A stretch of 64,000 bases of DNA from an uncultured Alphaproteobacteria bacterium (GTDB taxonomy: Bacteria > Pseudomonadota > Alphaproteobacteria > RF32 > CAG-239): positions 1-64,000 of the forward strand of contig CALXUP010000002.1 of assembly GCA_944391715.1 (NCBI GenBank). Reading direction: 5' to 3'. Shown piece after piece: positions 2,759 through 64,000 of the stretch. Each line of letters opens with the position of its first letter. Within the stretch, counting starts at the first letter, position 1. The translations under genes were made by a program, and so were the position numbers. The notes beneath the pieces are model-generated. The model was not told the DNA's origin, made no database searches, and worked only from the letters and a program-made list of their open reading frames with translations.

Positions 2759-3283
2759 ATGAAAAAAATTAAAAAGCTTTTATATCTGAAATTAGCCCGT
2801 AAAATGAATAAAAACGGCGGAACTTCCGCTGTCCCGACCATCATCAGCGAAGACAGCAAAATCATCGGAAACCTTATATCTTCCGGTATCGTTCATATTG
2901 ACGGCCGCATAGAGGGCGATGTCTGCTGCGATGAACTTGTCGTCGGAATAAAAGGAAGCATTAAAGGCCTCGTTCAAACGGAAAAACTTGAACTTTACGG
3001 CACATTGCAGGGCAAGGCCAATGTTGACAGCCTGTTTATTGCCAAGAGCGCCAGAATGATCGGCGATGCCACGCACAATTCAATTGCGATTGAGCCGGGT
3101 GCATATATTGATGGCAGTTGTATTCGGGCCGACCGTCTGCAACCGTCTTCCAAACAGGTTCAACAGATAAATAAGACGGCGTTGTCGGCGGCAGAGCGTC
3201 CGGTTGAAATTGCCAACACGCCCAAGACGGTAGTTTTGAGCGTCGGGTCGTCTAACAGCCCCAAAAAACGCGTTTCTAAATAA
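2759..3283 (+). CDS. Bactofilin (polymerising cytoskeletal protein)
   Basis: A 174-aa protein with a central bactofilin domain (about residues 30–120). It shows the repeating beta-helix pattern typical of the family: I-I-G-N-L-I, then H-I-D-G-R-I-E-G-D-V, then G-x-I-K-G, L-Y-G-x-L-Q-G-K-A. Short disordered ends flank the domain, and the C-terminus is rich in Ser and basic residues. Bactofilins self-assemble without nucleotide into membrane-associated filaments that localise wall enzymes. The gene lies 10 bases after the M23 peptidase, with an AGGACAGAGAG ribosome site in the gap, so the two are almost certainly co-transcribed. A strong terminator follows. Confidence 0.92.
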   Translation: MKKIKKLLYLKLARKMNKNGGTSAVPTIISEDSKIIGNLISSGIVHIDGRIEGDVCCDELVVGIKGSIKGLVQTEKLELYGTLQGKANVDSLFIAKSARMIGDATHNSIAIEPGAYIDGSCIRADRLQPSSKQVQQINKTALSAAERPVEIANTPKTVVLSVGSSNSPKKRVSK

Positions 3284-3298
3284 GTTTATGATAATATA

Positions 3299-3335
3299 AT
3301 AAAGGCTCATACGGATATGAGCCTTTATTTTTTTC
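3299..3335. terminator. Rho-independent terminator after bactofilin
   Basis: A 13-bp perfect stem (3299–3311 with 3316–3328) around a CGGA tetraloop, then a T-run on the plus strand. The minus-strand gene ending at 3352 converges on it, so it may act on both strands. Confidence 0.9.
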
Positions 3336-3351
3336 TAAATAACTGGAATAA

Positions 3352-3954
3352 TTATAGACATTCAAAATAGACAATAGAGTGGTAGATGGGAGCACCGCCT
3401 CCGTAGTCACAATCTCGAAAGACCGGGGTATTGCCGGAGGCTCGGCAACTTGTTTGCATATCATTACAATCTGGAAGTCCATAACTTTTGCACTCTTGAT
3501 AACAATTTCTGCCCCACATACTCTGACAAGTAGAGTCATTAGAATGTGACGTTCCGCCGTCATATCCACACTCTGTCGTATATCCACAGCAATATCCTCT
3601 TATAGCAACTTCGGTAAAACAAATCCCGTTATAACAGTTTTGTCCGCTTGAGCATTTGGAGGAACCGCAGGATTGGTAATAAGTCGTGCCGTTTCTGACA
3701 CAGGAGGAAGAACCGACATTTTGGCAATTAGCCGCACAGGTCTCGGCCGTGTAAGTATAATCACAGGTTTGCGGATCAAAACAAAAATATTTGCTGATAT
3801 CAAACGGACATTTAACCCCGCCGTTCGGACATTCATCGGCAGTATATATGTATCCCATCGTCTCACAATCCGGCGTTTGGGTGCAGGCCGCTATAGCATA
3901 ACCGGAAGTAAGGGCAGTGCAGCATAAGACGCTCCCCAAAATATATTGTTTCAT
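3352..3954 (-). CDS. Cys-rich secreted protein, cassette copy 1
   Basis: A 200-aa protein starting with a typical signal peptide (MKQYILGSVLCC...AIA, cleavage around residue 21). The mature part has roughly two dozen cysteines in EGF- or defensin-like spacing, with runs such as SCVRNG, SKCSSGQ and GYCCGY. It is probably exported and disulfide-bonded. The function is unknown. Start at 3954 is supported by GGGAGAGG upstream and by the equal start in two paralogues in this window (13859–14173 and 28519–29118). The signal peptide and the first ~65 residues are almost the same in all three. The C-terminal third differs. A canonical promoter lies at 3989–4017. Confidence 0.82.
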   Translation of the reverse strand: MKQYILGSVLCCTALTSGYAIAACTQTPDCETMGYIYTADECPNGGVKCPFDISKYFCFDPQTCDYTYTAETCAANCQNVGSSSCVRNGTTYYQSCGSSKCSSGQNCYNGICFTEVAIRGYCCGYTTECGYDGGTSHSNDSTCQSMWGRNCYQECKSYGLPDCNDMQTSCRASGNTPVFRDCDYGGGAPIYHSIVYFECL

Positions 3955-3988
3955 CAAACCTCTCCCGTCAAAACAAACACATAGGGAG

Positions 3989-4017
3989 ATTATATCACGA
4001 CTCAAATGAATAGTCAA
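3989..4017 (-). promoter_or_regulatory. Sigma70-type promoter of Cys-rich cassette 1
   Basis: On the minus strand TTGACT and TATAAT are separated by exactly 17 bases. The same promoter with the same flanks precedes both paralogues. Confidence 0.8.
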
Positions 4018-4065
4018 TATATAATGAAAAGTATAATGAATATTTTGGCTAGGGACAGAGATAAT

Positions 4066-4118
4066 AAAAACCCGCTTTTTGAATTTTTCTCCGGAGGGCG
4101 GAAAGTTCAAAAAGCGGG
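4066..4118 (-). terminator. Terminator of SlyB-like gene
   Basis: A 13-bp inverted repeat (4071–4083 with 4106–4118) followed on the minus strand by T-rich sequence. It separates the SlyB-like gene from cassette 1. Confidence 0.8.
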
Positions 4119-4140
4119 ATCTTTGGTCAGGTAATATTTT

Positions 4141-4608
4141 CTAATAATAAGAATTATACGGAACGACACGTGCTTGTTTGCCGTATAAAACCAGACACCT
4201 TTGTCCCGGTTGCAGCAAAATGTCCGTTCCTTGCGTAATGGTTACCAACCCGCCGTTTTCCAACTGAATGGTATATTCATAACCGGTCTGACGGGTAACA
4301 CCCTCCTGCACGGCATCTCCGACAATACCGCCCAAAACGGCACCGCCGACACCGCCCATAACGCGTACGGCATCATTTCCGCCAATCATCGAACCGGCCG
4401 CACCGCCGGCAATTGCACCGGAAAGTTTGCCGATCTGTCCGTCTCCGTCAGAAACGGTAACCTGACGGACGGCAACGACAGTTCCTCTGGCAGCCCGGTT
4501 GACCTGCCCGACGCTGGATGTGTTATAGTGGTTGGCGCCGATATTTTCGGCACAGGCGCCAAGCAGCAGAGTCAAAGGCAAAACAAGAGCAATAACAAAT
4601 TTTTTCAT
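4141..4608 (-). CDS. Glycine-zipper outer-membrane lipoprotein (SlyB / 17-kDa antigen type)
   Basis: A 155-aa lipoprotein. The signal ends in the lipobox LLGAC, with Cys about residue 19. A Gly/Ala-rich segment (about residues 60–105, with AGGAAGSMIGG and GGVGGAVLGGIVG) is the glycine zipper that spans the outer membrane in SlyB, Pcp and the rickettsial 17-kDa antigen. A small beta domain follows (about 110–150). Start at 4608 is chosen because GGAG lies about 10 bases upstream and the lipoprotein signal begins there; a longer frame adds ten residues without a good site. A TTGACA-like promoter precedes it. The role in family members is outer-membrane integrity. Confidence 0.87.
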   Translation of the reverse strand: MKKFVIALVLPLTLLLGACAENIGANHYNTSSVGQVNRAARGTVVAVRQVTVSDGDGQIGKLSGAIAGGAAGSMIGGNDAVRVMGGVGGAVLGGIVGDAVQEGVTRQTGYEYTIQLENGGLVTITQGTDILLQPGQRCLVLYGKQARVVPYNSYY

Positions 4609-4640
4609 AACACGATTCTCCGTAAAATAAACCTGCATAA

Positions 4641-4669
4641 AATTTAATCTGTATATGCGGCTTTGTCAA
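4641..4669 (-). promoter_or_regulatory. Putative promoter of SlyB-like gene
   Basis: On the minus strand TTGACA, 17 bases, TAAATT. Located 33 bases upstream of the start codon. Confidence 0.6.
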
Positions 4670-4747
4670 TGCTGGACAATTAAACTTTCTTGTTGTATAT
4701 TCCCAAACGGTATTATTGAACATAACAAAAAATATTGAGGAATAACA

Positions 4748-6136
4748 ATGTTACAAAGAACAAAAATAAAAGCTTTGCTGGCAGCCGATGCGCCGCTGGC
4801 CGAAGTTTTGGTCAAAGGCTGGGTCAGAACCCGCCGCGATGCCAAAGATTTTTCTTTTATTGAGCTGAATGACGGCTCCTGCCTTAAAAATATTCAAGTT
4901 ATCGCCAATAATAACCTCAATAATTACGAAGATGTCAAAAAATTATCAACAGGTTCGTCCGTTGCCGTAACCGGTGAACTGGTGGAATCAAAAGGCGGAA
5001 ACCAAAAGTTTGAAATCGTTGCCAAAGATATTTTGATTTATGATATTGCCGATGATGATTATCCGCTGCAAAAGAAAAAACATACGGACGAATACCTGCG
5101 GACGATAGCCCATCTGCGGCCGCGTACCAACAAATACGGCGCCGCTTTCCGGATTCGTTCGGAACTGGCTTTTGCCATTCACAAATTTTTCCATGACCGC
5201 GGTTTTCGCTATGTCCATACACCGCTGATTACCGGCTCGGATTGTGAAGGCGCCGGCGAAATGTTCCGGGTAACGACTTTGGATATGGAAAATCTGCCCA
5301 AACTTCCGGACGGCAAAATTGACTATTCCAAAGACTTTTTCGGCAAAGAAGCACACTTAACCGTTTCCGGACAGCTCAACGGTGAAATGTATGCCATGGG
5401 ACTGGGCGATATTTATACCTTTGGACCGACGTTCCGTGCCGAAAACTCCAACACGGCGCGTCATGCTGCCGAATTCTGGATGATTGAACCGGAGATGGCC
5501 TTTGCCGACATTTATGACAATATGAATGTGGCGGAAGATATGGTGCGTTACTGCGTTAAGCATGTCATGGAACATTGTCCGGACGACATTGAGTTGTTTG
5601 AAAAGTTTGTTGACCCGACGTTAAAAGACACGCTGGACAACATCATCAATAATGACTTTGCCCGCATTACTTATACCGAGGCCATTGAGATTATGAAAAA
5701 ATCCGGACACGACTTTGAATATAAACCGGAATACGGAATTGATATGCAAACCGAGCATGAGCGCTTTTTGGCCGAGCAGTATTTCAAAAAGCCGGTGATT
5801 GTCCGCGACTATCCGAAAGAAATCAAAGCCTTTTATATGCGGCTGAATGACGACGGCAAAACCGTTGCAGCCATGGATGTCTTGGTTCCGCGGATTGGGG
5901 AGATGATCGGCGGTTCGCAGCGTGAGGAACGGTATGATGTTCTGGTGCAAAAAATCAAAGAATGCGGAATGAAGGAAGAAGACTATGCCTGGTATCTGGA
6001 TTCCCGCAAATACGGCTCCGTTCCGCATTCTGGCTTTGGACTGGGATTTGAACGGATGATGATGCTGGTAACCGGCATCAGCAATATCCGCGATGTCATT
6101 CCTTTCCCGAGAACGCCGAATTCAATCAATTTCTAG
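4748..6136 (+). CDS. asnS: Asparaginyl-tRNA synthetase
   Basis: A 462-aa class IIb synthetase that charges tRNA-Asn with asparagine. An N-terminal OB-fold for the anticodon lies at about residues 18–110. The catalytic domain follows: motif 2 is the F-R-A-E-N segment near residue 225, and motif 3 is [10 protein letters not shown] near 435. Asparagine specificity rather than aspartate is inferred from the length and overall pattern, which match bacterial AsnRS. The ribosome site is TTGAGGAATAACA. Many alphaproteobacteria lack asnS and make Asn-tRNA by GatCAB transamidation, so the gene is noteworthy here. A small exported protein gene follows 9 bases later. Confidence 0.95.
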
Positions 6137-48330: not shown

Positions 48331-49338
48331 ATGAGTTTGACCAAAAAAGAAATTGTCGCTTTGCTGTCGGATGATGCAAACGAACAAGAGTTGTTTAAAC
48401 GGGCGGATGATGTCCGCCGGAAAAACGTCGGCGACGAGATACATCTGCGCGGTCTGATAGAATTTTCTAACATTTGCCGCAATAATTGCCTGTATTGCGG
48501 TATCCGTCGGGATAATAAAAAAGTTTGCCGCTACCGCCTTTCGGAAGAAGAGCTGATAAAAACGGCCCGTCAGGGTGCGGATATGGGGTTCAAAACCATA
48601 GTAATGCAGTCCGGTGAAGATATGTACTTCACTGCGGAACGGTTATGCCGGATAATTTCGGCGATTAAAAAATTTGATGTTGCAATAACCCTGAGTATCG
48701 GCGAACGGAGTTATGACGAATACAAAGCATTTCGCGAAGCCGGTGCCGACCGCTATCTGATGCGGATAGAAACAACGGACAAAGAGCTGTATCACAGGCT
48801 GGATCCGCAAATGAGCTGGCAGCATCGCTATGAATGCCTGCTGATGATAAAAGAACTTGGTTATGAGCTCGGGTCGGGCATTATGGTCGGGCTTCCGGGA
48901 CAAACGCTTGAATCCATTGCAAACGATTTGCTTTTTCTGCAGGATTTGGAAATTGATATGGCCGGCATAGGCCCCTTTATTCCGCATCCCGATACTCCGC
49001 TTGCCGGAGAAAGCGGCGGAAGTTTAAGCCTGGCTTTGCGGACAATGGCCGTTATGCGGATTATGCTGCCGGATATCAATATTCCGGCCACAACGGCAAT
49101 GGAAAGCCTGCATCCAAACGGGCGGATAATGGCTTTGCAGGCCGGAGCAAACGTCGTAATGCCGAATATAACGGAAGAAGAATATCGAAGTTTTTATGCG
49201 CTCTATCCGGGAAAAGCCGGTGCCGACGACACACCGGCAAACAGCCGCAGCCGTTTGGCACAAAAAATCATAAACCTGGGACGAACCATCGGCACCGGCT
49301 ATGGCAGCCATATCAAAAAGTCGCTTATTGACAAATAA
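48331..49338 (+). CDS. hydE: [FeFe]-hydrogenase maturase HydE (radical SAM)
   Basis: A 335-aa radical-SAM enzyme. The cluster motif C-R-N-N-C-L-Y-C is near residue 49 inside E-F-S-N-I-C-R-N-N-C-L-Y-C-G-I-R, the HydE pattern. The C-terminal part (T-T-A-M-E-S-L, then G-A-N-V-V-M-P-N-I-T) matches the BioB/HydE barrel. HydE works with HydF and HydG to build the H-cluster of [FeFe] hydrogenase. HydF, HydG and the hydrogenase are not in this window, so function depends on genes elsewhere. The ribosome site is AAGGAAGAAT. A related BioB-like role cannot be fully excluded. Confidence 0.88.
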   Translation: MSLTKKEIVALLSDDANEQELFKRADDVRRKNVGDEIHLRGLIEFSNICRNNCLYCGIRRDNKKVCRYRLSEEELIKTARQGADMGFKTIVMQSGEDMYFTAERLCRIISAIKKFDVAITLSIGERSYDEYKAFREAGADRYLMRIETTDKELYHRLDPQMSWQHRYECLLMIKELGYELGSGIMVGLPGQTLESIANDLLFLQDLEIDMAGIGPFIPHPDTPLAGESGGSLSLALRTMAVMRIMLPDINIPATTAMESLHPNGRIMALQAGANVVMPNITEEEYRSFYALYPGKAGADDTPANSRSRLAQKIINLGRTIGTGYGSHIKKSLIDK

Positions 49339-49356
49339 AGAATGTAATGCTAGATA
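49328..49356 (+). promoter_or_regulatory. Strong promoter overlapping the end of hydE
   Basis: TTGACA, 17 bases, TAGATA. Transcription would begin near 49363, downstream of the ATG at 49347 and upstream of the ATG at 49389. Confidence 0.6.
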
Positions 49357-49388
49357 CAAAACCGTATAACTTTATTATTGTCTGTATT

Positions 49389-50222
49389 ATGGATATGTTA
49401 GATTTAACCACAGTAGACCGTACGATTCCTATAGGTATCAGACGGGCTTGGAGAGGAGATACAGGAATGATATATTCAGGAATCCTCCCCGGGGATTATC
49501 TTTTGAAAGATAACAGCTTTTCCGCTTCCACCATTTGGGGGCAGGAGAAAGGCATTTTTTTTGATAATTTTGATTATCTGATTTTGGATCAGCTGACACC
49601 CAATGCCGTCACGGCGTCTGAGGCGCTTGGCTATTGTAAAGTTGTTGGTATGGAGCTGCCTTCACGCAAAAGACTTGAAGCTTTGGAAAAATTCAAAAGG
49701 ATTGTGAATCACAGCTTAAGAACTATAGGAAAACACGATTGTCAGCTTCTTTCAAATGTTGTTCAAAATTATTGGTCAAAAGAAGCTGCCGAAATCGGAG
49801 AACCCGGATACCGCCGTATTGTCATAACGGGATATGCCGGATTTATGCTTTTTAATATCCCAAATATACAGGGGGTTCGTATCAAAGATACATCGCCCCG
49901 TATTCCGGGTATTTATATTGCTGACCAGCATTATGAAGATGCTTCTTGGTTGTTGCAGGATATCGGGCTGTGCTGGTATTATGTTTTGGAAAGCCGTTGC
50001 CGGCATTATAGTGACGCTCCGCAGGATATGAGGCGTAACGGCCGCTGTTATATTAAAGGAAACAACTTAATTGTTGAAAACCCAACCGGAGATGTCTTTT
50101 ACAAAGGAACGGAAAGATATGCCAGAACCATAAAAGACTACTTCACAATGGACAATTACGGAATATACCGAAAAACTGACAGTATTGAAGGAAGTGTTCT
50201 TGCTCCGGAAACCGAAAAATAA
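49389..50222 (+). CDS. Unknown modular protein, family member A
   Basis: A 277-aa protein, no signal or membrane helix. It shares a module with the proteins at 62253 and 63229. An opening segment of type G-x-Y-L-L-K-x-x-x-x-S-A-x-T lies near residue 35, with Q-E-x-G-I-F after it. About 90 residues later comes a Y-W-S-K-E-A segment and then R-R-I-V-I-T-G-Y. This arrangement recalls DUF1566 or C-type-lectin-like folds, but that is inference. Start at 49389 is preferred to 49347 because the promoter at 49328–49356 would make the earlier ATG untranscribed. There is no Shine-Dalgarno sequence. Confidence 0.65.
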   Translation: MDMLDLTTVDRTIPIGIRRAWRGDTGMIYSGILPGDYLLKDNSFSASTIWGQEKGIFFDNFDYLILDQLTPNAVTASEALGYCKVVGMELPSRKRLEALEKFKRIVNHSLRTIGKHDCQLLSNVVQNYWSKEAAEIGEPGYRRIVITGYAGFMLFNIPNIQGVRIKDTSPRIPGIYIADQHYEDASWLLQDIGLCWYYVLESRCRHYSDAPQDMRRNGRCYIKGNNLIVENPTGDVFYKGTERYARTIKDYFTMDNYGIYRKTDSIEGSVLAPETEK

Positions 50223-50939: not shown

Positions 50940-51896
50940 ATGAAACGCAGAGACTTTTTCAAATTGTCGGCAAGCGCTGTTGTCGCCGGCGTTTTAGGAA
51001 AAACTTTCGGCATAAATCCGGCCGGTGCTGCCTTGCCTGAACAACAGGAGAAACCCAAGGTTTATTTTATCCGCGATATTACGCCGGAGAATCTGGTAAA
51101 GCTTTATGAAAAGGTCAACCAAAATATTAAAGGCAAAACCGCAATAAAACTTCATACCGGCGAGCCCCATGGGCCGAATCTGCTGCCGCGGGAACTGGCA
51201 AAAGCTCTGCAGGCAAAAATTCCCGATAGTACGATAGTCGAATGCAATGTATTGTATCCCAGCCCGCGCCAGACCACGGAAGGGCATTTGGAAACCTTAA
51301 AGACAAACGGCTGGACATTTTGCCCGGTAGATATTATGGATGCCGACGGCGATATTTCTTTGCCGGTTAACGGCGGAAAACGCCTGAAAGAAGTTGCTGT
51401 CGGAAAGCATATCGAAAACTATGATTCGATGGTCGTTTATACTCATTTTAAAGGACACGCAATGGGCGGTTTCGGCGGCTCGTTAAAAAACATTGCCATC
51501 GGCTGTGCCTCAGGCAAAAAAGGAAAAGCTCAGCTGCATGGTGCCGGCTGGCCGATTGGCAAGCCTTTTCTGGAAAGAATGGTGGAGGGCGGCAAGGCCG
51601 TTTGCGACCATTTCGGAAAACAAATTGCTTATATTAATGTCTTAAAAAATATTTCGGTCGATTGCGACTGCGATGCCCACGGCTCAAAACCAACCTGCCC
51701 GGATATCGGAATGCTTGCCTCAATCGATATTCTGGCTGTTGACCAGGCTTCTATAGATATGGTTTATGCATTGCCGGAGAAAGACAAACATGATATTGTT
51801 GAGCGCATAGAGTCGCGGAAAGGCCTTCATCAGCTGGAGTATATGGAAACGCTGAAAATGGGCAGCCGCCGGTATGAACTGGTTGAAATCAGCTGA
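50940..51896 (+). CDS. Exported DUF362 protein with Tat signal
   Basis: A 318-aa protein. The twin-arginine signal R-R-D-F-F-K-L-S at residue 3 and the hydrophobic segment ending near residue 29 (P-A-G-A) predict export in folded form by Tat. The DUF362 domain has K-L-H-T-G-E-P-H-G and F-K-G-H-A-M-G-G-F-G-G-S-L-K-N. A Cys cluster D-C-D-C-D-A-H-G-S-K-P-T-C-P-D-I-G near residue 241 may bind a metal or cluster. Many DUF362 proteins carry ferredoxin-type domains; none is seen here. The family is frequent in anaerobes; the substrate is unknown. The ribosome site is AAGGGAGA. Confidence 0.85.
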   Translation: MKRRDFFKLSASAVVAGVLGKTFGINPAGAALPEQQEKPKVYFIRDITPENLVKLYEKVNQNIKGKTAIKLHTGEPHGPNLLPRELAKALQAKIPDSTIVECNVLYPSPRQTTEGHLETLKTNGWTFCPVDIMDADGDISLPVNGGKRLKEVAVGKHIENYDSMVVYTHFKGHAMGGFGGSLKNIAIGCASGKKGKAQLHGAGWPIGKPFLERMVEGGKAVCDHFGKQIAYINVLKNISVDCDCDAHGSKPTCPDIGMLASIDILAVDQASIDMVYALPEKDKHDIVERIESRKGLHQLEYMETLKMGSRRYELVEIS

Positions 51897-53123: not shown

Positions 53124-54803
53124 TTATAACGGTGTTATCTCCGTATCCGGTTTTTTGAAAAAATGCATAAAGACAACCGGTTTGATGTCTGTAGCAGCAT
53201 AAATCTTTTTGCGGATTTTTGCCCGGATATATTCTTCAATAGCGCTTTCGCGATAGTTCAGTTTGACCACTTCTCCCGGAATGGATTTTATCATATCCGC
53301 CCTGATTTCCTCTTCCAGTTTATTCCAGGCATTTTCTTCCAGAATGTCAATGGAACTTATCTGCAAATCTTCCAACTGCCATTTTTCATCAAAAAAGGCG
53401 CTGATAAATACGCTGCAGTTATAGGCAATGCGTTTGCGGTTTTTAATCAGTTGCGACCCGAGGCTGGTCAGCTGTTTGCGGTCGACGCCCAGAATATCGG
53501 TCGGAACGACGCCGACCAGTTCGTATCCGTCTTTATTAATCAACAGAACATCGCCGTTATGAACCTGGGTAACGTCTTTAACGCCGCATTCCAAAGCAAA
53601 ACGCCGTTGCTCCCTGATGTTGCGCTTGTCGCCGTGAACCGGAATAACCAGCTGCGGTTTTAACAGTTCATACATGGCTTTAATTTCTTGTTTACCGCCA
53701 TGCCCGGTGGTGTGAACATCATATTCTTCACTGGTTATGACGTCAACACCGGCATCGCGCAGTTTTTCCTGCATCCGTTCTATTTTTTCCTCGTTTCCGG
53801 GAATAATCTTGGAGGAAAAAATAATGGCATCGCCTTTGCCGAGGCTGATATTTTTGTTTTCTCCGTTAACAATACGGGTCAGCCCGCTGCGATAATTGCC
53901 CTGCGACCCGGCACAGATATACAGCATCTTGTCCAACGGGATGTCCGTCGCTTGTTTGGCCTCCACATAAGACGGAATATCTTTCAAAAAACCGCAGTCT
54001 TTGGCAATATTCATATTCTGAATCAGGCTCATTCCGGCAATAACCGGCGTCCGGTCGGCGGCATGAGCAGCCAAAATCAGGCTCTCCATCCGGGTAATGT
54101 TAGAAGCAAAACAAGTGGCAACCAGCGTATTTTTGAAAGTCGGCACCAGCTTTATCAGATTTTCGCGGATTTTCATTTCCGACGGCGAAGGAGCTGTTTC
54201 CCGCATATTGGTCGAATCTCCGACATAAAGGATAACGCCTTCTTTAGCGGCTTCGTGCAATGCCTGATAATCCGTGACCGACAGTTCGTTTTGTCCGTCG
54301 TCAAAACGCCAGTCCGTCGCATGGACGACATTGCCGTAGCGGGTGCGGATAATCAGCCCGCAGCTTTCCAAAGTCGAATGCACCAGTCCGGCAAATTCAA
54401 CGTCAAAATTTTGCAGTTTAACGCGCGGGTGCGCCGTGGCCGAATGCAATTCAACCTCGTTTTCCAGCTTATATTCCCTTAAACGGTAAGCAATATGTCC
54501 GAGCGTAAAATCAGTGGCATATATCGGGCAACGCAGTTTGGGCCAGATATGGGCAATGGCTCCGAAATGGTCTTCATGCGCATGCGTAATAAAAATCGCC
54601 TCAATGTCCTGCTGATAATTCTCCAGAAAAGACGGATCAGCCAGTCCCATTTCTATTCCGGGAAAGTCATCATTCAAAAAACCGTACCCGGCATCAACAA
54701 CAATAATTTTTCCGTCAACGGCATAGGCGTACATATTAAAACCGACTTCTTCCGCTCCGCCTAAAGCAAAAAAGTATATCCCCTCTTTGTTAAATTCGTT
54801 CAT
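53124..54803 (-). CDS. rnj: Ribonuclease J
   Basis: A 559-aa metallo-beta-lactamase nuclease. It has the zinc motif T-H-A-H-E-D-H-F-G near residue 74, the beta-CASP domain with the K-x-P-V-I-A-G-M-type region, and G-H-G-G-K-Q-E near 380. RNase J matures and degrades RNA with 5'-exonuclease and endonuclease activity and replaces RNase E functions in some lineages. In alphaproteobacteria it lies downstream of nuoN and birA, as here. Length is normal. The ribosome site is weak but the N-terminus (F-F-A-L-G-G-A-E-E-V-G) is the family start. Confidence 0.95.
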   Translation of the reverse strand: MNEFNKEGIYFFALGGAEEVGFNMYAYAVDGKIIVVDAGYGFLNDDFPGIEMGLADPSFLENYQQDIEAIFITHAHEDHFGAIAHIWPKLRCPIYATDFTLGHIAYRLREYKLENEVELHSATAHPRVKLQNFDVEFAGLVHSTLESCGLIIRTRYGNVVHATDWRFDDGQNELSVTDYQALHEAAKEGVILYVGDSTNMRETAPSPSEMKIRENLIKLVPTFKNTLVATCFASNITRMESLILAAHAADRTPVIAGMSLIQNMNIAKDCGFLKDIPSYVEAKQATDIPLDKMLYICAGSQGNYRSGLTRIVNGENKNISLGKGDAIIFSSKIIPGNEEKIERMQEKLRDAGVDVITSEEYDVHTTGHGGKQEIKAMYELLKPQLVIPVHGDKRNIREQRRFALECGVKDVTQVHNGDVLLINKDGYELVGVVPTDILGVDRKQLTSLGSQLIKNRKRIAYNCSVFISAFFDEKWQLEDLQISSIDILEENAWNKLEEEIRADMIKSIPGEVVKLNYRESAIEEYIRAKIRKKIYAATDIKPVVFMHFFKKPDTEITPL

Positions 54804-54812
54804 TTACAATTA

Positions 54813-55541
54813 TTATCCTTGTTTGTCTTCCTTATAAAATACATCACCGGCATAAATTTTTTGCACTATATCACCTTTTTGCAATAATAACAATCCATTA
54901 TTGTCAACGCCGGCAAACACGCCGCATTCCTCGCCTTTTTCCGTTACGACGCGGATATCTTCGCCCTGTCCCTTTGCCATTTGCAGCCAGCGGCGGCGGA
55001 TGTTTTCAAAGCCGTCTTTATGCCATATATTGCGATTCTCGTCAAATTTTTTTAAATACATTCGCAAAAAATCCAACCGGTCAATTTCAATGCCGTTTTC
55101 TTTCAGACTGGCCGAGCGGTAGAGCAGGGTGCTCAACCGGGGTGCGTCCGTAATGTTGACGCCGATGCCGATGATAATATAGCCGTTTTCGCCGTTTTCC
55201 ATCAGAATACCGGAGATTTTTCCGCCGCCGACCAAAACGTCATTCGGCCATTTTATTTTAACCTCGGCGCCTAACCCGGCAATAACGTCTGCCAGACTTA
55301 ATGAAACGACAAAAACCAGCTGTCCCAGATCTTTCAGTTCTTCTTTAACGCCCAAAGACATAAATAAGTTCCCGTCAAGGCCGATCCAGCTTCTGCCCCG
55401 GCGTCCTCTGCCGGCATTTTGCCGGACGGCCGTTGCAACAAACTTTTCCGCCGGCGGGCACGCACTCAATATTTTTGCGTCATCGTTAGTGCTTCCGGTT
55501 TCTTCTTTATCCTGCCAATACCATCCGTTTATCGCGGTCAT
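54813..55541 (-). CDS. birA: Biotin–protein ligase
   Basis: A 242-aa enzyme that attaches biotin to acetyl-CoA carboxylase. The biotin-binding segment G-R-G-R-R-G-R-S-W is near residue 44, and K-W-P-N-D-V near 100 holds the catalytic lysine region. The DNA-binding domain of E. coli BirA is absent, so it is a monofunctional ligase without repressor role. It lies 9 bases after nuoN and 9 bases before rnj on the same strand. The order nuoN–birA–rnj is a conserved alphaproteobacterial layout. Confidence 0.93.
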   Translation of the reverse strand: MTAINGWYWQDKEETGSTNDDAKILSACPPAEKFVATAVRQNAGRGRRGRSWIGLDGNLFMSLGVKEELKDLGQLVFVVSLSLADVIAGLGAEVKIKWPNDVLVGGGKISGILMENGENGYIIIGIGVNITDAPRLSTLLYRSASLKENGIEIDRLDFLRMYLKKFDENRNIWHKDGFENIRRRWLQMAKGQGEDIRVVTEKGEECGVFAGVDNNGLLLLQKGDIVQKIYAGDVFYKEDKQG

Positions 55542-55550
55542 CGCTTTCTC

Positions 55551-56966
55551 CTAAAATACCCTTATCAGCATCCGTTCAAAACCGCTCATCAAAAAGCGCG
55601 GCTGCACCAGGCTGATAACAACCAAAATCAAATTAAGCGTCAGGCAAATATAAATACTCTTGTCAATTCGGTCAAAATTCATAATCGGCGAATCAAAATA
55701 CACGGTTTTGACCACAACCAGATAAGCGTTGGCCATCAAAATCAAAGACAACAACGCCACAGCCACCAGATAAAAATGATGTTCCAGCACCAGATTGTTG
55801 ATGACGGACAATTTACCGAGAAAACCAAGCATCGGCGGAGAACCGATTAACGAAACAAGAAACATCAGCAGAGCAGCGGCCAGATAAGCCTTCTGCTTGG
55901 CAATACCGGCAAATTCCCGCAGCTCAAACACATAGCGTCCCTGGCTTTTGAACCCGAGAAAAACGGTGTATATGCCCAGCATGGACATTAAATAAACAAG
56001 CAGATAAACAAACGAACTGAACAAACTGTCGGTACTGAAAGTTATCAGGCTTATCAGAATAAAGCCGACGTTAAAAACGCTGCCGTAAGCAAACAGGCGC
56101 AGAATATTTTTTTCACCGTTGGCCCCGATCGCACCAAAAAACAACGAAGCAACGGCAAAAATAATCAACGGCTGCTGAAAATGCCCGTATATGGGAAAAA
56201 AGACATTGATTGTCATTGTGCAAAATGCGGCAAAATAAGCCAGAACCGGTGCCAAAGTCAGATACCCGCCGACCGGCAGGATAGAATAACGGACAACATC
56301 CAGAAACCAAAAATGAAACGGTGCTGCCGCCATAAAGAACAACATCCCCGCCAGAATCATTGACGCAGCATAAAGATATATTCGCGGAATATCGGCTCCT
56401 TGGTGCAAAAAAGCAAAGATATCAAGATAATTCAGGCTTTCCGTCTGTCGGTAAAAAATTATAATTCCGGCGGCCATCAACAACAGAAAAATAGCGGCAA
56501 ATCCGGCGTAACGATGTGCAATAACAAAAATCCGCTCATCGTCAAGCCGCCGCAAAATTAAGAAATAAACCAAAACCGCATGCAGAGCCAAAGCGCTCCA
56601 CAGCAAAGCAAAATTATGTGCAGAAATGATAACGTCAAGGCAAATAAGCGAACTGATGCTTAACATAAAATACCGAAAAGACGACCTCTCTTCGTGCAAA
56701 AACCAGCGGTATGCCAAAAAGAACCAGACAAAAGAAAACAAAAAAACCAGACATTTAAATAAGGTCGTATAACGGCTGTTATCATAAATCCCGGGCAATT
56801 CGCTTTTATCATAAAGAATAATGCTCAACAGGACGGAAGCCAGCATAAAATATTTAGATAGCGTAAAATAGGTTTTCGGAGTGGCAGAAGTCCTGAAAAA
56901 ACGAACCAGTGCCAAAACAGGCAGGCAGCAGCACAAGACGATTTCGGGCAAAAAAGTTATCAGCAT
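55551..56966 (-). CDS. nuoN: NuoN-like antiporter subunit, degenerate
   Basis: A 471-aa polytopic protein with about 13 hydrophobic helices, placed last in an L–M–N order and followed by birA and rnj as in alphaproteobacterial nuo operons. The antiporter motif near residue 215 reads A-A-P-F-H-F-W, matching the family. The Glu normally in the L-E-L-x-S-L segment of TM5 is replaced (L-W-S-A-L-A-L). The TM7 lysine before the APFH motif is also absent (F-F-M-A-A-A). Both are key in proton transfer by family members. The fold and order say NuoN; the loss suggests weak or absent proton pumping. Confidence 0.78.
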   Translation of the reverse strand: MLITFLPEIVLCCCLPVLALVRFFRTSATPKTYFTLSKYFMLASVLLSIILYDKSELPGIYDNSRYTTLFKCLVFLFSFVWFFLAYRWFLHEERSSFRYFMLSISSLICLDVIISAHNFALLWSALALHAVLVYFLILRRLDDERIFVIAHRYAGFAAIFLLLMAAGIIIFYRQTESLNYLDIFAFLHQGADIPRIYLYAASMILAGMLFFMAAAPFHFWFLDVVRYSILPVGGYLTLAPVLAYFAAFCTMTINVFFPIYGHFQQPLIIFAVASLFFGAIGANGEKNILRLFAYGSVFNVGFILISLITFSTDSLFSSFVYLLVYLMSMLGIYTVFLGFKSQGRYVFELREFAGIAKQKAYLAAALLMFLVSLIGSPPMLGFLGKLSVINNLVLEHHFYLVAVALLSLILMANAYLVVVKTVYFDSPIMNFDRIDKSIYICLTLNLILVVISLVQPRFLMSGFERMLIRVF

Positions 56967-56976
56967 AATGTTTCTC

Positions 56977-58410
56977 CTATCGGCCTAAAAACCATAGCGG
57001 CCTGATAAACGAGGCAATCAGGACAAAAATAATAAAAGTCATAAAGAAAAAGTAGGGTTTGGAAATATCCGTAATACATCCTTTTTCAGGGCAAAAAGCC
57101 GAACTGTCCTTCAGCCGGTACAAATCCCCGAGCAGCGCGCCGGAAGAAAGAACCAAAGCGCAAACAACCGTAATCCCCAGATTAAAACTGTTTTCCAGCA
57201 GGCTTGAGATAATCAGAAAGTTGTTTAAAAACAATGAGGAAACCGGAAGCCCGATTGCCGCCAGAACCAGAAAAGAATATACAAAAGCCAGGCGGGGAAC
57301 GGGGCAAAGCAGACCCTCCGTCCCGAGTTCAAGCTTTTCTTGCTGACTGCGGACATAACTCGAAACAAACTCCAGGCCGGCAACAATAATCAGATAACTG
57401 AAAAAAGAGAACCCGACATTCAGCATAATCAAAGTATTTTTGGACAGCAGCCCCAGCATATACATAATATAATAAACGGTGATATAAGAGAAAAATTTAT
57501 ATTGGGTATCCCGGTTGATAAAGCCGATAAGCGCAATAAACAACATCGTCACAACGCCGATAATCTCCAATGCCGTTATGTAAAAAGCCGCCGAAACCGG
57601 AAATGTTTGCGGTAAAAAGCGGATTAATCCGTAAATTCCGGTCAGCGGAATCAGGTTGACGATAATAAATACCAGCGGGTTTTTAATGCTCGAACTCACA
57701 CTTGCAATCCAAAAATGAAACGGCCAGATCGGAATGCGGGATAAAAAGGAAATTAAAATCGATGCCCACATAAAGTGTTCCGTCCTGCCGTTAAAAGACA
57801 GCTGCGTTACTTTTGATATTTCAACGGCTCCGTTTTGGTAGTTGTATAAAATGATTGTCGCCAGAAACAAAACGACCGCACCCAGAAAGTTGTAAAGGAA
57901 AAAGCGATACATAATTCCCTGACGGCGAATGTCTCCGAAAATGCCGATTAGCATAAATACCGGAAAAAGCATTGCCTCAAAGAAAATGTAAAAAGAAAAC
58001 ACGTCCGCAGCCAGCAAAAATCCGGTAATCTGGCTCAAAAACAACAGGGCAAAAACCATCATCGATTTTTGTTGTATCCGGTTATGCCGGACCGCTATAA
58101 ACCCGATAATAAAAGCAAGATGAATAGACAGCAGCAAAAGTGCAGAAAAAACGTCAACTCCGAGAACAATGTCAATTCTTGGATTCTCCAGCCAGGTAAA
58201 GCGTTCTACCAGCTGCAATGCGGAAGATTTAACGTCCAGCCGGGAAAACATTCGCAAAATGAGCACAATATTGGCAATAACCGTAAACAGGCTGACGTTA
58301 TAAACATTCCTTCCTCCGGTTTTTTCGTCATTTTTGGCGGCCAACACAAAAAGCATCCCCAAAAAGGGCAAAACGATAATAACCGACAACAGGTAAAGAT
58401 TGCTGCTCAT
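56977..58410 (-). CDS. nuoM: NuoM-like antiporter subunit, partly degenerate
   Basis: A 477-aa polytopic protein with about 14 hydrophobic helices. The TM5 glutamate is kept (F-F-E-A-M-L-F-P, near residue 130). At the TM7 position the usual K-x-P-x-x-P-F-H reads R-I-P-I-W-P-F-H, so the lysine is replaced by arginine. The following L-P-D-A-H is lost (I-A-S-V-S). The lysine of the K-M-G-G-Y-G segment in TM8 is also missing (P-L-T-G-I-Y-G). The gene lies between nuoL- and nuoN-like genes with gaps of only 3 and 10 bases. Best seen as a diverged complex I subunit. Confidence 0.8.
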   Translation of the reverse strand: MSSNLYLLSVIIVLPFLGMLFVLAAKNDEKTGGRNVYNVSLFTVIANIVLILRMFSRLDVKSSALQLVERFTWLENPRIDIVLGVDVFSALLLLSIHLAFIIGFIAVRHNRIQQKSMMVFALLFLSQITGFLLAADVFSFYIFFEAMLFPVFMLIGIFGDIRRQGIMYRFFLYNFLGAVVLFLATIILYNYQNGAVEISKVTQLSFNGRTEHFMWASILISFLSRIPIWPFHFWIASVSSSIKNPLVFIIVNLIPLTGIYGLIRFLPQTFPVSAAFYITALEIIGVVTMLFIALIGFINRDTQYKFFSYITVYYIMYMLGLLSKNTLIMLNVGFSFFSYLIIVAGLEFVSSYVRSQQEKLELGTEGLLCPVPRLAFVYSFLVLAAIGLPVSSLFLNNFLIISSLLENSFNLGITVVCALVLSSGALLGDLYRLKDSSAFCPEKGCITDISKPYFFFMTFIIFVLIASFIRPLWFLGR

Positions 58411-58413
58411 CTC

Positions 58414-60090
58414 CTATCTCCCCGTATAAAGAAAAAGAATGCCCAGACCGCACAAGGCCAGCAAGATATAATTAATCAACGCCGGCTGATGAATCTTTTG
58501 TGAAACCTTGATTAAGAATTTTATCATATCAGAAAGAGAGTTAATTATGGTTCTTTCAATAATGACAAAATCTATCGTCAGCCATAAGATACGCCCTAAA
58601 ACGGTTATCGGCGTTAAGACGACAAGCTCGTAAAATCGTTTGAAAAATTCTGCAAGCTGCAATTCTTCATCGGCATAATAGCGCGACAAACGGCGCAGCG
58701 GATGTATCGCCAGCAACAGCAGGAATACGGCAAAAGCCATGACGGCGGTTCGGGAAACTTCCGGAAAAGGAAAAACAGACCAGCCGCAAATCAATACTGC
58801 CGGTAGCCAACAGTCAGCATAAGGCAGAGCTTTCAACCGCGCAGAAACGATTTCGTCGGCTTGGGTCGCCCCGAAAAAAACTTCTCTCAGAAAATGTGCC
58901 AAAGCCAGAGCCATAAACGATACAAACAAAACAATCACAACCCGGGCTCCTGCTTGACTATAATCAAGCGACAAGGTGTTTTGAGCAAAAATTGCAAACC
59001 ATAAAACAAAGAACAAAAACAACAGCCATAGATTTTTAAAGAAACCGCCCGTTTTGGATACGTAAATTTCATCCGACGCAGCTGCGGACAAAGCGTGTAT
59101 CAGTCCGTTTAAAGCCAGCATCAGCAAAAACAACGAAAAATATGCCGAAAAGGAAAAATGGGGCACTGTCAGAGCCAGAGCATATAAGAATGCCCAGAAC
59201 AGCATGTTGAAACAAAGCGTTTTTTCTTTAATATCATCATATATCAATGTTCCGCCTAAGGCATAAACGGCCGAGAGCCCGGCTGTGACGGCAATTACCA
59301 ACCGGCCGTATTCAAAGGCGGATAATAAAGGCATAACTTTTTCATAAATCAATATTCCGACCACCGGCAGACTGCTGAAACTCAGGAAAACGAGCCGGTT
59401 AAAATTCAGGTCGCGAAAGCTCAGGAGCTGGTTATGAAACAAAAACAAACCGTTTTTTATCAACAGGCTTAAAAGGATAAGGCTTGCAACCAGCGGAATA
59501 TGCTCGCCCTCCCGGGCATATTTTGTCAGAACGGAAAGTTCCACCTGATGAAACTGGCTGTATATTATTGCAAAGGCCGTAAACAAGGCCATGTCGGAAA
59601 TCAGGTCATAAACAATATATGTTTTTTTCGATTCGTAATCGTTAATAATGTAAAGAGTCGTGATGCTGGTTAAAAAGGCGCTGATCATTAAGATAATCAG
59701 GTTATTGGTGCAAATCAGCAATAGTAAAAACGCCAAATTGACGCACATCAAACCGCCCAGGCGCAATCGGCGGATTTCCTGCCGAGAGAAAATATTGCAA
59801 AAAAGCGAAAACAACAGCACAATGCCCAATGGCATCAAATAGAGATAATTGCGCTGATTGGCCGAAAGGTTGATGTCTATATGCAGACTTTTATATTGTA
59901 TCCAGTGAAAAACAAAAGGTTCCGAGCTCCCGGACAAATAAGCCTGCCAAATCAGCCAGCCGTAACTAACTGCGCCCGCAAAAACCAATAATGAAAAGAA
60001 TCGGGAATATTTGTCTTTGGGAAGAAAAAACGCAGCTCCGCCCGTTAAAGACAACAATATAAACAAGTTTACCAGCATATTATTCGTCAT
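58414..60090 (-). CDS. nuoL: NuoL-like antiporter subunit, strongly degenerate
   Basis: A 558-aa protein with about 15 hydrophobic helices and a C-terminal amphipathic helix and final TM, as in NuoL. Gene order (L–M–N–birA–rnj) gives the identity; sequence similarity is weak. The W-E-G segment of TM5, holding a key Glu, reads M-I-S-A. The TM7 lysine remains (I-K-N-G-L-F-L-F-H), but the W-L-P-D-A-M-E-G-P-T block after it is gone. Start at 60090 is chosen; TTG at 60120 lies against the terminator hairpin, and ATG at 60078 is also possible. No nuoK precedes it in the window. Confidence 0.68.
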   Translation of the reverse strand: MTNNMLVNLFILLSLTGGAAFFLPKDKYSRFFSLLVFAGAVSYGWLIWQAYLSGSSEPFVFHWIQYKSLHIDINLSANQRNYLYLMPLGIVLLFSLFCNIFSRQEIRRLRLGGLMCVNLAFLLLLICTNNLIILMISAFLTSITTLYIINDYESKKTYIVYDLISDMALFTAFAIIYSQFHQVELSVLTKYAREGEHIPLVASLILLSLLIKNGLFLFHNQLLSFRDLNFNRLVFLSFSSLPVVGILIYEKVMPLLSAFEYGRLVIAVTAGLSAVYALGGTLIYDDIKEKTLCFNMLFWAFLYALALTVPHFSFSAYFSLFLLMLALNGLIHALSAAASDEIYVSKTGGFFKNLWLLFLFFVLWFAIFAQNTLSLDYSQAGARVVIVLFVSFMALALAHFLREVFFGATQADEIVSARLKALPYADCWLPAVLICGWSVFPFPEVSRTAVMAFAVFLLLLAIHPLRRLSRYYADEELQLAEFFKRFYELVVLTPITVLGRILWLTIDFVIIERTIINSLSDMIKFLIKVSQKIHQPALINYILLALCGLGILFLYTGR

Positions 60091-60120
60091 AAAGTCATTC
60101 AACTGCGACCAATATAACAA

Positions 60121-60149
60121 AAAATAAGGGCTTTTAAAGCCCTTATTTT
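60121..60149. terminator. Terminator between the 60170 gene and nuoL
   Basis: A near-perfect palindrome, AAAATAAGGGCTTT with AAAGCCCTTATTTT. It would end transcripts of the 105-aa gene and leaves little room for a nuoL promoter. Confidence 0.75.
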
Positions 60150-60169: not shown

Positions 60170-60487
60170 CTATTTTGCCAAAGCTTCCAGGCTCTTGACG
60201 ATGCGGAGCGGAACCTTATATTCACGAGCTACCTCGTCGCCGTCGATTTCGGCAATCAAAACTTCATCCACGGATTTCAACGGGGCTCTGGCTTTTTCAT
60301 TAATGGCGTCTAAAAATAATGCGCTTTCGCGGCTGCGATACAAAAGAGCCACATCACCGCCGTCATATACCATACGGGGATTCTCGGGACCGCCGTTACG
60401 GTATTTTATGATAATCAGGATCTCTCCCGCACCATTTTGTAAAATATCGTATCTACCTTCTTGTTCAGAAATCGTATTATCAGCCAT
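60170..60487 (-). CDS. Small unknown protein
   Basis: A 105-aa soluble protein. The first half has an all-beta feel (R-Y-D-I-L-Q-N-G, I-L-I-I-I-K-Y-R-N-G-G). A D-G-G-D-V-A-L-L-Y segment and a helical end follow. Start at 60487 is supported by GAGGAAAG just upstream. No family is recognised. It lies upstream of nuoL on the same strand, separated by a terminator-like palindrome. A role in the nuo block is not implied by anything beyond position. Confidence 0.65.
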   Translation of the reverse strand: MADNTISEQEGRYDILQNGAGEILIIIKYRNGGPENPRMVYDGGDVALLYRSRESALFLDAINEKARAPLKSVDEVLIAEIDGDEVAREYKVPLRIVKSLEALAK

Positions 60488-60612
60488 GGCTTTCCTCATC
60501 AAATTATTATTCTGTAATCTTCTGATATTTCAATCTGAAACTGATATTAACATATAATTATTAATAAATACAGCACAATTTTAATTTTTTTATTTTTTTT
60601 TGATTTTTTTTA

Positions 60613-60914: not shown

Positions 60915-61319
60915 ACCATATCCGGCAGACATTGGGCAGTCTTTTATGAATCTTATATGCAAACCTATATTGAACGCGATATTAAAGCGCTAAGCGCGGT
61001 GGGCAATGAGCGGCAATATGTTTGAGACCTATGTTGTTTCTGAAATCATCAAAAGCTATTGGCATAACGGCAAACAGCCGGATATTTACTATTACCGCGA
61101 CAAAGAAAAGCGGGAAATTGACGTGTTGCTCCATGAAAATGGCACGCTGTATCCGGTAGAGATTAAGAAAAAAGCAACCCGGACAAAGGAGGTATCAAGG
61201 CTTTTAACGTTATTGAAAAGCTTAAACAAAAAAGAGGAACCGGGGCTGTTGTCTGTATGGCGCAGACGCATTTGCCACTGACTGGTGATGTTAATATTAT
61301 TCCGGTTGGATATTTATAA
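60915..61319 (+). pseudogene. Broken AAA/DUF4143-type ATPase gene
   Basis: Three fragments of one protein appear in order but in different frames. About 60933–61003 encodes F-Y-E-S-Y-M-Q-T-Y-I-E-R-D, typical of the middle of DUF4143 ATPases. From 61006 another frame gives M-S-G-N-M-F-E-T-Y-V-V-S-E-I and the nuclease-like stretch D-K-E-K-R-E-I-D-V-L-L. From about 61200 a third frame gives G-T-G-A-V-V-C-M-A-Q-T-H-L-P-L and the natural stop at 61317. A large internal deletion lies near 61000 and a frameshift near 61195. The N-terminal ATPase domain is missing. The gene is clearly inactive. Confidence 0.82.
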
Positions 61320-62252: not shown

Positions 62253-63215
62253 ATGAAAGCTACAGGTTTATCCGCATCTAGGCAGATAGTCTGCTATGAT
62301 GCAAAAAGTGTTGATGCAGGTTTACTGCAAAGTTCAAAATGTAAAGGAAGCTATTTGTTAAAGAATGGCGAGATTAGTGCTCAAACGGTTTATAATCAGG
62401 AATGGGGCATCTTTATTGATGAACATTTGTATATTCCGTTAAAAATGACAAAACAGCTGCTAACGGCTCACGAAGCCGAAGTTTATTACCACAGCCTGGG
62501 AGAACAGATGCCTGATTTATATCAGATTGTCCGTTTCAAATTGGCAGTGGAAGACGTTAACGCATCTCTGACGCGGATTGGAATGCAAGATTTTGTTTTT
62601 CCTGAAGATATTCTTCATAACGTATGGTATGAAGAAGCGCTGAAAGAGGCTAAATCCGGTGAAATGCGCCGCTGTGTTGTAATTTCCGGGTACCCGGATT
62701 ATCAGAAACCTTCTTATCAGCAAATTGATGAAGATTATTTATTGTTTGCCGATACAATCCTCTATTGCCGCACTGAAGAATGTTATGAACCGGTCAGCCC
62801 TGTTTTAAAATTCAACTGGTCGGGAATTGATTTTCTTTGTGCCGAGATTGCAGAAAAGAATTATAATTTTTACCGGGGAAAAGACCTTAAACTGGTTTAT
62901 CTGGGGAGAGGTACGGTGATTGACCTTGTTGATAATGAGTTGCTTGTTACAGGGAGGAGCTTATATCAAAACTTTGAGGGAAAATTATATGAAGTATGTT
63001 CTTTGGATGATAACACATCATATTCACGTTGTAATAACACCGGACAAATAGTTATTACCACTTCTCATGAATATGTTCTGGATGGTATTTTGGAATCTGC
63101 CTGGAATATTAAAACTTATTTTCAAAAAAATGAAGAAGGTTTGTTTGTCAAAGTGAAGACAGAGGATGTCGACACCTATGACAGAAACCGTTTTTGGAAA
63201 AATTTTTACAACTAA
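62253..63215 (+). CDS. Unknown modular protein, family member B
   Basis: A 320-aa soluble protein, relative of 49389–50222. The module opens with K-G-S-Y-L-L-K-N-G-E-I-S-A-Q-T-V near residue 31, then N-Q-E-W-G-I-F. It continues with L-T-A-H-E-A-E-V-Y, V-W-Y-E-E-A and R-R-C-V-V-I-S-G-Y near 139. A C-terminal part (about 150–320) differs from member A and has a beta-rich look. The leader contains A-T-A-A-C-T-T-T-A-T-T close to the ATG, a string also found before member A, and no Shine-Dalgarno sequence. Function is unknown; no signal peptide is seen. Confidence 0.68.
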   Translation: MKATGLSASRQIVCYDAKSVDAGLLQSSKCKGSYLLKNGEISAQTVYNQEWGIFIDEHLYIPLKMTKQLLTAHEAEVYYHSLGEQMPDLYQIVRFKLAVEDVNASLTRIGMQDFVFPEDILHNVWYEEALKEAKSGEMRRCVVISGYPDYQKPSYQQIDEDYLLFADTILYCRTEECYEPVSPVLKFNWSGIDFLCAEIAEKNYNFYRGKDLKLVYLGRGTVIDLVDNELLVTGRSLYQNFEGKLYEVCSLDDNTSYSRCNNTGQIVITTSHEYVLDGILESAWNIKTYFQKNEEGLFVKVKTEDVDTYDRNRFWKNFYN

Positions 63216-63228
63216 AACTTGCTTTCTT

Positions 63229-64000
63229 ATGAACAAAAATCAAACTGAGGCATTATTGTCCTGCATCAGGGACAATGCCATCGACACATTGGAATTGTAT
63301 GACTACCTGAATACGGTTCATCCCGGAGAGTTCCATTTTACCAATGGAACGCATTTTCCGGTTTTGTTGCCGGGCTTGACGGCTGATGGCGTATTTGCCA
63401 GTGAAGAATACTATCTGACGGCAAATGAGCGTATCAATGGAAAGACGACTTTAGCCCGCGCTCAAAGATTTTGCAGCAACCGCGGATGTGTTTTGCCGGA
63501 TTGGAAAGCCGGCCGCGCAATGAAAGAACATCGCGGCGAGATTAACGCGTCTCTTAAAATTCTCGGTTTTCCGTTGTTGGAGGACGGTGAGTATTGGACA
63601 GCCGGCGACAAAGCCGGAGAAGGCGAACCCGGAGAAATTATTTTCGGCGGGCCGGCCCCCGGAGATGACACTTACATCGGAGGTTCGTGGACAAACTATC
63701 ACAAATATGTCCGCGGATGTATTAAGGTAGCCAAGACGCCCCAAAAACTGGATTATGCCAGAAGTGAGTTCAAAGATGAACAAACAACGGTGTTAGACAG
63801 TATTTTTAAGGACTTTGGAATATCCCGCTATCAGTTTATGATGTATCATAACAACAAGAACTGTTATCCGCAGCCCGGTCATTATCTTTTGAAGAACGGT
63901 GCACATTCAGCGTCTACCGTTTATGACCAGGAGGCAGGGATATTTGCAAATGCCAACCTGTATATTAAACTTGATATGCCCAAATCGCCGTTTACGTCCG
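63229..64000 (+). CDS. Unknown modular protein, family member C (partial)
   Basis: At least 257 residues; the frame is open at the window end, so the true length is unknown. Two modules are visible. The first (about residues 30–170) has R-A-Q-R-F-C-S-N-R-G-C-V-L-P-D-W and E-I-N-A-S-L-K-I-L-G-F, aligning with member A's module. The second starts near residue 200 with P-G-H-Y-L-L-K-N-G-A-H-S-A-S-T-V-Y and D-Q-E-A-G-I-F, matching the N-terminus of B. It is 13 bases after member B, so the two are probably co-transcribed. The start ATG lacks a Shine-Dalgarno sequence. Confidence 0.68.
   Translation, partial: MNKNQTEALLSCIRDNAIDTLELYDYLNTVHPGEFHFTNGTHFPVLLPGLTADGVFASEEYYLTANERINGKTTLARAQRFCSNRGCVLPDWKAGRAMKEHRGEINASLKILGFPLLEDGEYWTAGDKAGEGEPGEIIFGGPAPGDDTYIGGSWTNYHKYVRGCIKVAKTPQKLDYARSEFKDEQTTVLDSIFKDFGISRYQFMMYHNNKNCYPQPGHYLLKNGAHSASTVYDQEAGIFANANLYIKLDMPKSPFTS

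Follow-up and report, generated by a model that had tools for sequence, protein, structure and literature searches.

How far the antiporter-like subunits of complex I are able to function independently is a long-standing question, and the past that they are supposed to have had before the complex existed is hardly testable. The window analysed here, 64,000 nucleotides from an uncultured alphaproteobacterium, appears to hold a natural case: it encodes homologues of NuoL, NuoM and NuoN, while profile searches of the genome find no complex I to which they could belong. The module that drives the arm has been removed, the arm itself is retained in well over a hundred species, and proton residues have been replaced in a fixed manner. 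The first-pass annotation of this DNA drew attention to the replaced residues; the solitude of the three genes is not visible from the window alone, so that the central fact lay beyond that reader's view. What, then, is the arm retained for?

The locus

The three genes are intact open reading frames, tightly packed on the minus strand, and are referred to below as the orphan L (nuoL-like, 58414..60090), M (nuoM-like, 56977..58410) and N (nuoN-like, 55551..56966). They are followed on the same strand by birA (54813..55541), which encodes a biotin-protein ligase and is a retained neighbour from the alphaproteobacterial nuo operon with no part in the function, and by rnj (53124..54803), the gene for RNase J, which served as the yardstick for selection strength. 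Directly upstream of L, also on the minus strand, is a gene for a conserved 110-residue protein of unassigned family (60170..60502), which has no match in Pfam and is conserved beside the locus in both the family and its sister family. A terminator-like hairpin of 13 pairs (60121..60149, minus strand) lies between this gene and L and is overlapped by a promoter-like site (60111-60138, a consensus match only), which suggests that the trio probably has its own transcript start. Translation of L probably begins at the ATG at 60090 or 60078 and not at the TTG at 60120; the residue numbers used for L (F149, D176, K222, R242 and 492-543) are counted from that TTG.

The order L-M-N-birA-rnj, which the first-pass annotation had taken as a mark of complex I, occurs in all 40 sampled relatives, usually with the 110-residue gene upstream. 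The full block is present in 77 of 80 GTDB loci, the others being split or interrupted by the end of a contig, and the only recurrent neighbours are the 110-residue gene, birA, rnj, one gene on the opposite strand and mutS.

Identity and predicted fold of the subunits

N matches the NuoN model TIGR01770 (E 1e-61) and M the NuoM model TIGR01972 (E 1e-54), each match falling short of the curated cut-off, and the closest solved relatives of the two are subunits from Paracoccus denitrificans and plant mitochondria. As a single sequence L finds no sequence match in Pfam or the PDB, and PF00361 is matched by L in only 4 of 37 family members. The reading that L is not a NuoL, which these searches invite, was overturned by its family profile, fold and position. 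Aligned by hhalign with a NuoL profile built from 20 alphaproteobacterial sequences and that of E. coli, the L family profile gave a probability of 99.4% and an E-value of 4e-21 over 542 columns; the profile-profile comparisons for M and N gave E-values of 4e-51 and 1e-62. L, M and N are thus homologues of NuoL, NuoM and NuoN, as had been read from gene order and helix patterns, with L very divergent.

The NuoL of complex I has a long lateral helix that runs along M and N and ties the three subunits together. The AlphaFold model of the orphan L (pLDDT 85.9, pTM 0.84) retains a helix of 52 residues (492-543) followed by the last transmembrane (TM) helix; its top PDB match is Paracoccus NuoL (TM-score 0.76), and in comparisons with L subunits of complex I it reaches Z 32-34. 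The model of M (pLDDT 86.8) is matched best by Paracoccus NuoM (TM-score 0.88). In prediction, then, the folds of both L and M are intact.

Absence of a complex I core

The source organism belongs to a family of uncultured Alphaproteobacteria from gut and rumen, grouped around 'Azospirillum sp. CAG:239', of which 152 genomes were analysed. Its own genome (1.55 Mb, 96.8% complete, a draft in 35 contigs) gave no match to NuoD or NuoH in profile searches. Family-wide searches for subunits outside the trio covered NuoD, NuoB and NuoK: NuoD (PF00346) and NuoB (PF01058) were found in 0/152 genomes, NuoD in 0/109 of those of good quality, and NuoK (PF00420) in 0/152 above the cut-off, two weak matches falling within an L-sized frame. 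The searches are sensitive: of 14 control genomes, 11-13 gave positives, NuoD was detected in 265 of 289 sampled Alphaproteobacteria, and the Pfam models used also recognize the A, B, D, H and K subunits of the sister-family genome described below, which have diverged strongly. PF00361 antiporter-type subunits are present in 140/152 family genomes and an F-type ATPase is retained in 144/152, while the Rnf complex occurs in about half of the family, source genome included. Most genomes of one genus (g13, G101-G126) depart from the remaining family in having a second, different a subunit of the F-type ATPase.

With NuoB and NuoD missing from 152 genomes and NuoH from the source genome, there is no carrier of electrons to quinone. 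To judge from the profile searches, the family has no complex I and L, M and N stand alone. Azospirillum CAG:239 is described as having no terminal oxidase and is termed a strict anaerobe (PMC6431628); it has [FeFe]-hydrogenases, and homologues of NuoE/F are reported to adjoin [FeFe]-hydrogenase there, not as complex I (PMC4967309).

Origin from a nuo operon

The sister family, which belongs to the same order, is represented by a single genome (G152). At the corresponding site it carries the 110-residue gene followed by nuoA-B-C-D-H-J-K-M-N-birA-rnj (locus L075, G152:C81, 7250-16446), with M truncated to 348 residues and E, F, G, I and L missing in place. This reduced operon is an odd minimal complex I in its own right; its NuoB retains the four cluster cysteines, as judged by eye. 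Within the family itself, four genomes from two genera (g6 and g12) have lost the trio cleanly, the 110-residue gene, birA and rnj remaining, with an unrelated gene filling the gap in one of them (G094). Two further genomes without the trio (G080 and G151) were excluded from the count of losses, as the rnj locus was found in neither. The subset retained by the sister family and the loci without the trio together show that the nuo operon eroded in place and that L, M and N were lost later, at least twice. L, M and N formed the 3′ end of the ancestral nuo operon and are the remnant left after erosion, and the partly dismantled operon of the sister family, which retained another subset, represents an intermediate.

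The orphan sequences are monophyletic, with support of 100/100 in the N tree and 98 in a quick M tree. The M of the sister-family genome falls beside the orphans on long branches in the quick tree, and its N falls beside the references, outside the orphan clade; of these results only the monophyly of the orphans is relied upon. The 110-residue protein was considered as a partner of the trio and rejected, since it persists where the trio has been lost and, in the sister family, is encoded just ahead of nuoA. Its gene is best regarded as a positional marker.

Loss and replacement of channel residues

Channel residues were placed by multiple alignment and, independently, by hhalign, and the two disagree only at NuoL K399/D400, whose placement is arbitrary because TM12 is degenerate. 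Reference Alphaproteobacteria (n = 20) retain all the residues listed here except His305 of N (18/20) and Asp400 of L (19/20). In the orphan L, Glu144 of TM5 is replaced by Phe149 (Glu in 0/84 relatives), the W-L-P-D-A-M block is missing and His254, His334, His338, Lys342 and Lys399/Asp400 of TM12 are lost; the channel residues of TM8, TM11 and TM12 are gone. Lys229 of TM7 is retained as Lys222 (codon 59455-59457; 82/84) and Asp178 of TM6 as Asp or Glu in 84/84 (D176 here), and a new residue, R242, is nearly invariant. In M, Lys234 of TM7 has become Arg225 (57736-57738; 88/88), Lys265 of TM8 leucine (L256; 87/88), Glu407 of TM12 Asn397 (57220-57222; 88/88) and His322 tyrosine (Y314; 85/88), with Glu144 of TM5 (E145; 71/88) and His241 (H232; 88/88) retained. 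In N, Glu133 of TM5, Lys217 of TM7 and Lys247 of TM8 are replaced by Ala127, Phe211 and Val241, and Lys395 of TM12 is retained here as Lys385 and in 34/87 relatives.

The losses that the first-pass annotation had read by eye from family motifs in L, M and N hold wherever it named particular residues. Its broader statement that the proton residues are largely missing is supported, with two corrections: most are lost, but it left unlisted the M TM5 Glu and the L TM7 Lys, which, with the N TM12 Lys in part, are what remains of the complex I relay set (TM5 Glu, TM7/TM8 Lys, TM12 Lys/Glu). As read from the alignments, the losses are real and family-wide, and not due to chance. The canonical proton relay is broken in L, M and N, most specifically in M.

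The channel columns of M are among its most conserved (median 0.99 versus 0.57 elsewhere, p = 0.0009) and they carry the new residues, which points to a fixed redesign and not to decay, whereas the channel columns of N drift (median 0.36 versus 0.46). When the loss of ionizable columns was compared with that of other reference-invariant columns, the Fisher p-values were 0.017 for N, 0.19 for L and 0.25 for M; as only N is significant, we claim no preferential loss of charged residues overall.

Asparagine, leucine and tyrosine cannot relay protons as glutamate, lysine and histidine do, and arginine in place of lysine stays charged. With Asn, Leu and Tyr at the M positions in TM12, TM8 and TM11, neither M nor N is likely to pump protons by the established redox-type mechanism. 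E. coli complex I in which Glu407 of M is changed to Lys still pumps, with reduced stoichiometry (PMC9271201); one such change alone leaves pumping in place, and in the orphan M several positions have changed together.

Selection on the three genes

Pairs of sequences compared within genera gave dN/dS values of 0.02-0.05 in M, 0.05-0.08 in N and 0.07-0.15 in L, as against 0.02-0.05 in rnj, and the frames of the trio are intact in every relative sampled, a set that spans many genera. All three genes are therefore maintained under purifying selection, M as strictly as RNase J, which bears out the earlier impression, gained from the open frames, that they are maintained. A partial relaxation is possible for N and L, and the clean loss of the trio in two genera implies that it is dispensable in some settings.

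What the remnant may do

That the trio is a reused, non-redox module, the part of the complex I membrane arm that is left and stands by itself, we consider very probable. The first-pass annotation had offered recruitment for another role in an anaerobe as one of two readings, and this is supported by the missing redox core, the maintenance of the trio and the strictly anaerobic life of the group (PMC6431628). Its other reading, a complex that still moves electrons and no longer pumps, would account for the proton residues lost in M and N, but it has no NuoB or NuoD to work with in any family genome and no NuoH in the source genome, and the group is described as without terminal oxidases (PMC6431628); we regard it as extremely improbable, and as refuted unless redox subunits too divergent to be recognized by sequence are hidden in these genomes. 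Only a little less so is the view that the genes are decaying leftovers of the nuo operon. The clean losses, the fast evolution of L and N and the free drift of the N channel residues would fit such decay, yet frames intact across many genera and dN/dS well below 1 do not, and for M, whose channel columns have become fixed to new residues in 88/88, it is refuted by the selection data. That the missing nuo genes merely went unassembled might be suspected of a draft in many contigs, but is rejected, with a negligible chance of being right, given the completeness of that draft, the absence of NuoD from the good-quality genomes and a contig that runs from L into the 110-residue gene with no space for nuoA-K.

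Two further readings give the trio a definite task. It might be the membrane part of a larger machine in which a new input module encoded elsewhere, either a soluble enzyme or a further membrane protein, has replaced the quinone module: L retains the lateral-helix end and N, by sequence, its general fold, the side that once faced NuoK/J, and the constraint on M comes close to that on RNase J, as expected for an interface protein. This we hold to be unlikely, as the locus has no conserved unassigned neighbour other than the 110-residue gene, which persists where the trio is deleted. Rnf was considered as the partner and rejected, the trio being found with and without it; genus g2 at least and most of g3 have L, M and N and no Rnf match. 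Less likely again is that the trio serves as a minimal cation/proton antiporter of the Mrp type and operates chiefly through L, with its TM7 Lys and TM6 acid. Lys222 and Asp/Glu176 are conserved as this would demand, and in B. subtilis NuoL can stand in for MrpA (PMC4938563), but L has lost its TM5 Glu, TM8 Lys, TM12 Lys-Asp and histidines, an MrpC/NuoK-type subunit is absent above the cut-off from all 152 genomes, and the MrpD-like channels M and N no longer have their relay residues.

The explanation that we prefer overall, and think reasonably probable, is that a self-standing LMN module was reused after the electron-transfer and quinone modules had gone. The three subunits would have outlived that loss in strictly anaerobic gut Alphaproteobacteria and may still assemble as a membrane complex. 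M would be its working core, and the fixed Arg-His-Tyr-Asn set, around which its former proton channel would have been rebuilt, could not pass protons on in the manner of the Lys/Glu set; L would act as a keel with one possible half-channel at Asp176/Lys222, and N would be mainly structural. Our best guess is a passive or gradient-driven movement of solutes or ions through a remodelled path in M and L, not redox-driven pumping. Whether the family has in this way turned the NuoL-M-N arm into an independent non-redox transport or channel machine, with M rebuilt around the fixed set, seems to us evenly balanced. A transport or channel activity of any kind is a tentative proposal, somewhat short of even, and the particular roles given here to M, L and N are doubtful.

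Comparison with known systems

The trio resembles the distal arm of complex I (NuoL/M/N; ND5/ND4/ND2) in homology, gene order, the predicted folds of L and M and the lateral helix of L, and differs from it in lacking the quinone module and NuoK and in its replaced relay residues. The Mrp antiporters (CPA3), whose MrpA and MrpD belong to the same superfamily of antiporter-like subunits, work without redox subunits; here, however, the small MrpC-type subunit is missing (PF00420 0/152 above the cut-off), the TM5 Glu/TM7 Lys pairs are broken and L bears a C-terminal lateral helix of the NuoL type. DabB of the DAB/Mps inorganic carbon transporters is NuoL-like, and these systems similarly reuse such a protein outside complex I, but the orphans are three tandem subunits with no DabA-like (PF10070) gene among their recurrent neighbours. 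One such transporter, DAB2, is described in PMC13144422. Group 4 membrane-bound hydrogenases differ in having NiFe large and small subunits (NuoD/NuoB-like), found in 0/152 family genomes. Hydrogenosomes, which keep only homologues of NuoE/F, likewise retain a piece of complex I in a hydrogen-metabolising anaerobe (PMC4967309), yet they are the mirror image: the soluble NADH module is retained there and the distal membrane arm here. The orphans mirror hydrogenosome evolution in anaerobic, hydrogen-metabolising relatives.

We found no report of orphan nuoLMN genes in a literature search, which left subscription papers outside its range. The proteins are of a known kind; for their state, a distal arm alone, with altered channels and retained family-wide, we found no described match. 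They offer a natural mutant series of channel residues and a candidate for a new type of transporter.

Other features of the window

The window also encodes HydE, an [FeFe]-hydrogenase maturase (48331-49338), and beyond it a DUF362 protein whose TAT-signal match is weak (50940-51896). A short ORF (61006-61281), which has no match in NCBIfam, looks by eye like the C-terminus of a larger protein of ATPase type (DUF4143-like) and is probably a gene remnant. Three proteins (49347-50222, 62253-63215 and 63166-63999) have in common a repeated motif like LLKNGxxSxxTVYNQExGIFI, and a family search on two of them gave no match. Relatives of these proteins, recognized by eye, occur in another locus (L204, 7122-9172), where a similar HydE/DUF362 pair is adjacent (3187-5150).
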